Shown one piece after another: positions 10,027 to 12,971 of a DNA stretch of 64,000 nucleotides; positions within the stretch are counted from its first letter, which is position 1; every line of letters starts with the position of its first letter. The notes beneath the pieces were generated by a model, which did not search any database, was not told where the DNA came from, and worked only from the letters and a program-made list of their open reading frames with translations. Origin of the DNA: Coriobacteriia bacterium (GTDB taxonomy: Bacteria > Actinomycetota > Coriobacteriia > Anaerosomatales > JAAXUF01); the NCBI GenBank assembly GCA_013336165.1, contig JAAXUF010000003.1, forward strand, positions 124,001 to 188,000, read 5' to 3'. The position numbers and the translations under genes were made by a program.

Positions 10027-11031
10027 TCACGCCGTAAGCCGGGAGTACTGGGCGTCCTCGTCCACCGCGTGAGGCCTGTCGTCCTCGACAGCCTTGGGTG
10101 CATACAGCGGACGGCGGAACAGGTTCGCAGCGTCCGTCCAAACCTCATCTGCGCGCGCCGCACCGCGAAGCAGCGAGGAGAAGCCGGCGGCCTTGGCATC
10201 GAGGTTGTCTGCATGGTGAAGCAGCAGAGCCTCGAGAGTGGAAGGCTTCTTCGGCGAGCCCCACTCCAACTCCCCGTGATGGGAGAGAACCGCGTGTTCA
10301 AGCTGCATGGCACGTTCTGCGGGCAGCTGTCTTCCCACGCGTTCAACCGCCGAGTGCAAACGCCTCATGCCGAGCACGACGTGCCCGACTAGCCTGCCTT
10401 CGTCTGTGTACTCAATCGCAGTCTCGAACGACAGCTCGTCACACTTGCCGACATCGTGCAGCAAGGCTGCTGTGACAAGCAGGTCGCGGTCGACAGCGGG
10501 ATACTGCTCCGAAAGGGAGACACAGAGCCTTGCGACTGCGACCGAATGCTCAAGCAATCCCCCGAGATACGCATGGTGATGCGACTGCGAACCGGGGCAA
10601 CGGCAGAATAGCCCAAAGTATCGAGCCTCGCCGAACACCGCTCGCAACACGCGCGACATTCCTTGGTCCGAAACACTTCGAACCAATGCCCGAAACTGCG
10701 CCTGAAGTTCGGGGATCGATGAGACCCCAGCGGCGATCATATCTGCAGGATCGTGATTCTCGGCAGGAGTGAGCGCAACGACTGAGATGCGCTTCATTCC
10801 CCGATACACCGTGACCGTACCTTGGATATGTACCACGGACCCGACAGGAACCGCCAAGGCCCCTCCTGAGGGGCGAAACAGCACCGCCGGCAACTGGCCC
10901 GTACGATCGGCAAGCTCAAGGCTCAGGTACGGATCACCGGCTCGAGACGAGCGCACCTCCTTTGCGCGCAATGCAAAGGGGGCGTCGACTTTCATGCCCT
11001 CAGCCAGCTCGTTGACATAGTCCTTCTTCAT
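10027..11031 (-). CDS. YhaM-like 3'-5' exoribonuclease (OB fold plus HD domain)
   Basis: A 334-residue protein with an N-terminal OB-fold domain (residues 1-110, LSLELADRTGQLPAVLF) and a C-terminal HD domain. The HD residues are visible as H in SHHHAYLGGLLEHS, HD in LLHDVGKCDEL and H in VLSHHGELEWG. This matches the YhaM family, which trims RNA or single-stranded DNA from the 3' end. The ATG at 11031 has GAGAGG about 9 bases upstream. It stands alone between the M50 protease and a DUF62 protein. Confidence 0.85.
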   Translation of the reverse strand: MKKDYVNELAEGMKVDAPFALRAKEVRSSRAGDPYLSLELADRTGQLPAVLFRPSGGALAVPVGSVVHIQGTVTVYRGMKRISVVALTPAENHDPADMIAAGVSSIPELQAQFRALVRSVSDQGMSRVLRAVFGEARYFGLFCRCPGSQSHHHAYLGGLLEHSVAVARLCVSLSEQYPAVDRDLLVTAALLHDVGKCDELSFETAIEYTDEGRLVGHVVLGMRRLHSAVERVGRQLPAERAMQLEHAVLSHHGELEWGSPKKPSTLEALLLHHADNLDAKAAGFSSLLRGAARADEVWTDAANLFRRPLYAPKAVEDDRPHAVDEDAQYSRLTA

Positions 11032-11125
11032 GGTGCGCTGCCTCTCCGCAATCCGCGCATCACTGCGCCTCATGTCAGAAGGTAGCTTTGAGCTCTGACA
11101 TTCTGAAGACGCCGAGAAGACTTGA

Positions 11126-12489: not shown

Positions 12490-12879
12490 CTAGCCGCAAA
12501 GCCTCATCCGAAAATGCTCCAGCACCTCTCCCGAGACACGGTCGCGCCAACCTCGCTCGATCTCCTGCCAGATGCCCTCGCCATCCCGACCCGAAGCCTG
12601 TAGGTCCGCGACTTCGGCCGCCACGATGTAGCAGGCCGATGCGCACCGCGCCGATGCGTCGCGCATCACCCGTCGTCTTACTACGGCGTCGAAGTAGGCA
12701 CGCGCCCTACGTCGCGCAGATGGCGATGCCAGACCCGCACCTGAGCGGCGCAACATCATTACCGTTGCTCGGTTGGCTTCTTCTGCAATCGGCAAGGGAA
12801 CCTCGCGTCTGCATGCAGCCTCCACCAGTGCGTCGAGGTACGCGCCATCCGCACACAGACTGCCTTGAATCGAAATCAT
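12490..12879 (-). CDS. Small hypothetical protein, predicted SOS-regulated
   Basis: A 129-residue, Arg- and Ala-rich, mostly helical protein with six cysteines, one of them in the last three residues (MRLCG). I do not recognise a domain and see no signal peptide or membrane segment. The ATG at 12879 has GGAGG 6 bases upstream. The important feature is a perfect LexA-type box, CGAAC-TTAT-GTTCG, starting 15 bases before the start codon, so expression is probably induced by DNA damage. Small SOS-induced proteins are often cell-division inhibitors or nuclease or polymerase accessory factors, but nothing in the sequence proves either. Confidence 0.7.
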   Translation of the reverse strand: MISIQGSLCADGAYLDALVEAACRREVPLPIAEEANRATVMMLRRSGAGLASPSARRRARAYFDAVVRRRVMRDASARCASACYIVAAEVADLQASGRDGEGIWQEIERGWRDRVSGEVLEHFRMRLCG

Positions 12880-12893
12880 CTGGCACCTCCATT

Positions 12894-12907
12894 CGAACTT
12901 ATGTTCG
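12894..12907. promoter_or_regulatory. LexA (SOS) box
   Basis: The sequence CGAACTTATGTTCG is a perfect palindromic arm pair CGAAC / GTTCG around TTAT. It matches the Gram-positive LexA operator core GAAC-N4-GTTC. It sits directly upstream of the ribosome binding site of the 129-residue gene, where bound LexA would block transcription. Confidence 0.75.
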
Positions 12908-12971
12908 TAATGAAGGTTACCTGCAGACTCTGACATCACCCTGACGGGTCGCCAAACCGCTCGGAACCTGG

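Follow-up and report, generated by a model that had tools for sequence, protein, structure and literature searches.

A 129-residue protein encoded in the window (the whole stretch of DNA that was analysed, 64,000 nucleotides long) belongs to a family that is, according to our searches, new and restricted to Anaerosomatales, an order of subsurface bacteria in the class Coriobacteriia. The gene is very likely regulated by both LexA and PafBC, and the predicted sites in front of it suggest that the protein would very probably be made only after DNA damage. The original prediction, a small protein without a known family under LexA control, agrees with the comparative evidence, namely a conserved predicted operator and the same box at lexA and recA. 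It overlooked the PafBC half: the LexA box appears to be embedded in a PafBC-type promoter, which would place the gene under double control. The elements on which this reading is based are the following.

12490..12879, minus strand: coding sequence of the new 129-residue family (ATG at 12879, stop codon TAG at 12490-12492).
12884..12890, minus strand: Shine-Dalgarno sequence GGAGGTG between the box and the ATG, assigned from the sequence.
12894..12907, minus strand: predicted LexA operator (SOS box), CGAACATAAGTTCG, found with at most one mismatch before 26 of 30 homologues and alike in motif to the lexA and recA boxes.
12914..12919, minus strand: -10 element TAACCT of the predicted PafBC-type promoter, 6 nt 5' of the SOS box.
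12929..12935, minus strand: predicted PafBC (RecA-independent promoter) recognition element TGTCAGA, matching the published motif.

The gene had been described as having a perfect LexA box upstream of its start codon and a product without a recognisable domain, and both statements hold. The box, CGAACTTATGTTCG, corresponds to CGAAC-N4-GTTCG at 12894-12907 without a single mismatch, while the product of the minus-strand gene has a best Pfam E-value of 0.092 and no NCBIfam match. The combination TGTCAGA-N9-TAnnnT spans positions 12914-12935 of the window sequence, with the box directly downstream. In relatives with a perfect box, the distance between box and start codon is 11-21 nt. An upstream GTG start, which would extend the protein to 149 residues, was rejected because the reading frame would then begin within the promoter.

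Frequency alone gives the box no significance. When one mismatch is tolerated, the window holds five sites where 4.0 are expected, and the 1.99 Mb genome contains eight perfect CGAAC-N4-GTTCG sites compared with seven for the reversed control. This lack of excess is what one would see if the box were a chance palindrome and the gene an ordinary ORFan. However, the box is kept at a fixed place in relatives: among 30 homologous loci, which were found by protein similarity alone and include the window locus, it is perfect in 22 and carries one mismatch in four, always at the same place before the start. Of the eight perfect genomic sites, those of lexA, recA and the 129-residue gene are at proper promoter positions; the others are intragenic or lie at unrelated genes (e.g. 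ribosomal protein L11 and RNA polymerase, named by eye). We therefore count the box as real because of its position and conservation and not because of its frequency in the genome. Two of the loci, L016 and L035, have a PafBC-type promoter and no box.

The second switch is conserved too. The exact sequence TGTCAGA-N9-TAnnnT is found in 28 of the 30 homologous loci with fixed spacing, and 3-6 nt separate the -10 element from the box where both are intact. An older consensus, TTGTCRGTG-N8-TANNNT, reportedly goes back to Gamulin et al. 2004. The PafBC motif of M. tuberculosis is TGTCAG-N10-TA-N3-T (PMC8151990), and the window promoter, TGTCAGA together with its -10 element, is identical to it and correctly oriented. 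In the genome from which the window comes, TGTCAGA-N9-TAnnnT occurs eight times, compared with none for the reversed control. Sites of this type precede the LysM gene divergent from lexA, recQ, an OB/HD-domain gene, the 129-residue gene and others; further ones lie at loci L043, L044 and L046. A tandem pair of WYL genes in the same genome is the pafB-pafC pair, matching the solved PafB/PafC chains 9fnd, 7p5x and 6sj9. The window itself holds a second PafBC-type promoter, TGTCAGAGCTCAAAGCTACCTT, at 11079-11100 on the minus strand, before the YhaM-like HD/OB gene (10027-11073), and 19 of 28 relatives have kept this promoter in front of that gene.

Recognition of a different motif by the LexA of this lineage had been named as one result that would speak against the prediction, and it was not observed. 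Boxes of the form CGAAC-N4-GTTCG were found upstream of lexA in 12/12 Anaerosomatales genomes, some single boxes having one mismatch. In all 12 genomes the lexA region combines three to four boxes with a divergent PafBC promoter, so that both motifs are identified independently of the 129-residue gene. In the genome of the window this region is

G000:C1:100455-100830 (L001, L039, L064): lexA region with several SOS boxes and a divergent PafBC promoter.

There, the divergent promoter drives a gene for a protein with a transmembrane segment and a LysM domain (YneA/ChiZ/Rv2719c-like), and the layout of boxes and divergent PafBC motif matches the one reported for M. tuberculosis lexA/rv2719c. The recA gene of this genome has the same perfect box as lexA. 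A RecX gene adjoins recA and is present in nine of ten genomes tested.

A scan of 84,980 bacterial and archaeal genomes for the joint LexA-PafBC pattern returned 43 matches, whereas about three are expected from base composition. Directly downstream of 33 of them is a member of the 129-residue family: 32 were recognised by the HMM, and the remaining one, at L102, is cut by the end of the DNA examined and is known from another locus (L025). The joint promoter is absent from genomes of the order that lack the gene, and in genome G012 it stands right before the divergent member. That most joint matches precede a single family is a second point against a chance palindrome. While the genome count alone is insufficient to reject it, the comparative data refute this explanation, and we regard it as extremely improbable.

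The joint promoter was also seen before other genes. In Anaerosomatales it precedes DUF6504-like genes (L122, L132 and L137), with a dnaE2-like gene next in L132, and in Actinomyces and Timonella (L104, L119) it precedes RecA-like, possibly ImuA-type genes, which were assigned by eye and have no Pfam match. The DUF6504-like and RecA-like targets fit a mutagenesis theme. In two Pseudonocardiaceae, Kibdelosporangium and Actinocrispum (L121, L133), the joint promoter stands before the gene of a DUF4253 protein.

Of 61 related genomes searched with the single protein sequence, 31, including the genome of the window, have a homologue, and a profile search identified members in 50 of approximately 69 sampled genomes of Anaerosomatales (equivalent to OPB41, PMC9686372), each with a single copy. 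In the remainder of 298 Coriobacteriia genomes, the profile search revealed no family member outside the order; three weak partial matches in 296 genomes of the phylum, without promoter or box, were rejected as homologues. A related-locus search with the single protein returned no matches. In about 19 of the 69 genomes sampled from the order no copy was detected, and in several the loss was confirmed at the syntenic place; the gene is thus not essential. Gene order is conserved, comprising a DUF2085 gene, the 129-residue gene, a convergent lipoprotein gene and a SAM hydroxide adenosyltransferase gene. These neighbours stay in place where the gene is missing, which indicates vertical inheritance with occasional loss and also makes them uninformative about function, so an operon or guilt by association was discarded despite the synteny. 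An origin from phages or plasmids was likewise rejected: tblastn against 50,697 phage and 72,556 plasmid records gave no match, and IMG/VR held no relative either.

Searches with the protein gave no significant Pfam, NCBIfam, PHROG or PADLOC family and no PDB match; scattered hits in the four family collections were below cut-off, partial or confined to single members. Weak matches to DUF6074 (PF19551) over helices 4-5 were obtained for 8 of 29 members, with a best E-value of 7.5e-5. All those inspected scored less than the curated threshold of 27.2 bits (best 23.3) and were partial, and they are probably compositional. Profile matches in PDB to the designed helical proteins 8cws, 8cwy and 5cwb were dismissed as compositional helix matches. 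An AlphaFold (AF2) model of the window protein built with 29 sequences has six helices and a pLDDT of 88, and a model of another member built with 45 sequences has the same six helices and a pLDDT of 90. Foldseek found nothing reliable for this fold, the best E-values being 0.6 in PDB and 1.1 in viral models, so the structure does not constrain the mode of action.

In the family alignment Y62 is invariant and R58, R68, A35, T39, L93, D92 and G97 are nearly so. The conserved positions include no residue set typical of a nuclease or another enzyme. The description of the protein as Cys-containing stood for the window protein and fell as a family feature: members have 0-5 Cys, and a conserved Cys metal site was rejected for this reason.

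Several of the weak Foldseek matches are to sigma factors (7qh5, 8hkc, 9wsf, 5uxx and 4mq9; TM at most 0.49), as might be expected of a transcription-level modulator, for example a helical protein that binds sigma or RNA polymerase and tunes the damage response. However, these matches have E-values of 0.8 or worse, typical of small helical bundles, and are accompanied by no Pfam match to a sigma domain; we consider such a role very unlikely. An accessory of repair that binds DNA or RecA independently of the clamp (a RecX-like modulator, an ssDNA-binding protein or a recombination mediator) would go well with a perfect box like those of recA and lexA, with a basic family (median pI 10, approximately 15% Arg) and with the invariant or nearly invariant Arg-Tyr-Arg on helix 3. 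Set against this are the weakly basic character of the window member (pI 8.8), the lack of a fold match and the presence of RecX itself next to recA, which no member of the family matches. This alternative is possible, although on the unlikely side. The idea that the protein is RecX in disguise was rejected, as there is no PF02631 or other Pfam match and the true RecX is encoded separately beside recA.

A further alternative is a damage-induced division inhibitor, that is, a cytoplasmic counterpart of SulA that would delay septation until repair is complete. The protein is small, very likely SOS-controlled and probably short-lived, as SulA and YneA are. A lineage-specific sequence is usual for SOS division inhibitors, and that of the new family is narrowly lineage-specific. 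However, the place of such an inhibitor is already filled by the gene with a transmembrane segment and LysM that diverges from lexA and has its own PafBC promoter. The conserved Arg, Tyr and Asp of the new protein are on helices, and a membrane helix is lacking, as is any likeness to SulA in Pfam or NCBIfam. We consider a division inhibitor unlikely. Assignment to the YneA/ChiZ type was rejected, since the protein is all-helical and soluble, with neither membrane helix nor LysM, and a separate LysM gene adjoins lexA.

The two ends of the protein offer other indications. The C-termini vary in length and sequence, yet the last residue is Ala in 31 and Gly in 5 of 45 members, 36 in all. Ends of the form [AVLC][AG] were found in 71% of members compared with 10% of 232 other ORFs from the same loci, in a comparison whose background holds some false ORFs and whose member count is inflated by near-identical sequences. 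ALAA is the ending of the order's tmRNA tags, and ClpXP disposes of one SOS protein, RecN, by way of a signal at its C-terminus (PMC10714372). It seems fair to read the tails of the family as degron-like, and Ala/Gly tails would probably lead to rapid destruction of the ClpXP type after damage ends. The tail of the window protein, LCG, is not a canonical ClpXP signal.

At the other end, 16 of 48 members, among them all 12 members of one clade, have QL-x-[LMIF] or a similar motif within residues 1-12; in shuffled sequences QL-x-[LMIF] is found 0.14 times per 45. The variants are QLSLP, QLTLI, QLTL, QLTF, QLRLP and QLDLG (loci L097-L179), and the proteins that carry them otherwise share on average one third of residues. 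Clamp binding has the consensus QL[S/D]LF, and Hda binds tightly through QLSLPL (PMC12309361). The window protein starts with MISIQGSLC and is without a QLxL motif, which leaves part of the family behind the clamp idea, and the motif may be a feature of one clade. An order-specific checkpoint protein that docks on the clamp through this motif in one clade and through another contact elsewhere, and that is AND-gated and proteolysed once ssDNA is gone, is a doubtful proposition that we regard as quite unlikely.

The reading that we prefer for the gene as a whole is as follows. PafBC, activated by ssDNA, would be needed at the promoter, with TGTCAGA at about -26 and TAnnnT at -10. The LexA operator lies over the predicted transcription start, and LexA would thus block a promoter that also needs PafBC; full expression would take both cleavage of LexA and activation by PafBC. 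As both regulators are triggered by ssDNA, the output would require both, an AND-gate logic that we deduce from the positions of the sites. The product would be a small, mostly basic, all-helical cytoplasmic protein, with an Ala/Gly tail allowing quick removal of the ClpXP type. It may act on the replication or repair machinery, the QLSLP-like N-terminus of one clade resembling the DnaN-binding motif of Hda. It would then be a transient regulator at the replisome or at damaged DNA, such as a replication checkpoint or an accessory of lesion bypass, and not a division inhibitor or nuclease. A short-lived damage effector directed at replication is a tentative suggestion. The explanation in its entirety (damage-response gene, AND-gate promoter, short-lived product and action on replication or repair) is a serious possibility that falls somewhat short of being probable.

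Several known systems share parts of this arrangement. Rv2719c (ChiZ) of M. tuberculosis, divergent from lexA, is likewise a small protein with LexA boxes and a PafBC promoter, and it is damage-induced, as the new protein would be; however, proteins of this type have a membrane helix and LysM, whereas the new one is an unrelated, soluble helical protein whose genome has its own gene of the Rv2719c type. Mycobacterial recA has a PafBC-dependent promoter P1 and a LexA-dependent promoter P2 (PMC5656591, PMC11804915). Double control by PafBC and LexA/RecA would be common to recA and the new gene, but the former uses two promoters for its two regulators, while in the latter the LexA operator lies directly 3' of the PafBC -10 element of one promoter. 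YneA of Bacillus, SosA of Staphylococcus and SulA of E. coli are likewise small, LexA-controlled and narrowly distributed, some of them being short-lived, and have no domain or membrane segment in common with the new protein. RecN of E. coli, a large SMC-like ATPase, is alike only in the proposed disposal by ClpXP. Hda of E. coli has an N-terminal QLSLPL, and one clade of the new family has QLSLP, QLTF or QLRLP at its extreme N-terminus; however, Hda is an AAA+ protein, the window member is without the clamp motif, and the likeness of the clade is one of sequence only. What is new is thus the protein family; what is known is the double control, which here would take a tightly fused form.

No paper on the LexA/SOS regulon of Coriobacteriia was found in the literature searched, and a Streptomyces study did not find the PafBC motif in this class. 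Our comparison of predicted sites points to the same double damage response in this deep-branching class of anaerobes as in mycobacteria, with no change to the published PafBC motif. Within the order no other predicted joint target is as consistent as the 129-residue protein, whose family follows 33 of the 43 joint promoters in all sampled genomes. Its apparently long and tight link to damage would offer a direct way into a step of bacterial damage tolerance that is not yet known, and the N-terminal motif of the family is a concrete first target for testing its function.
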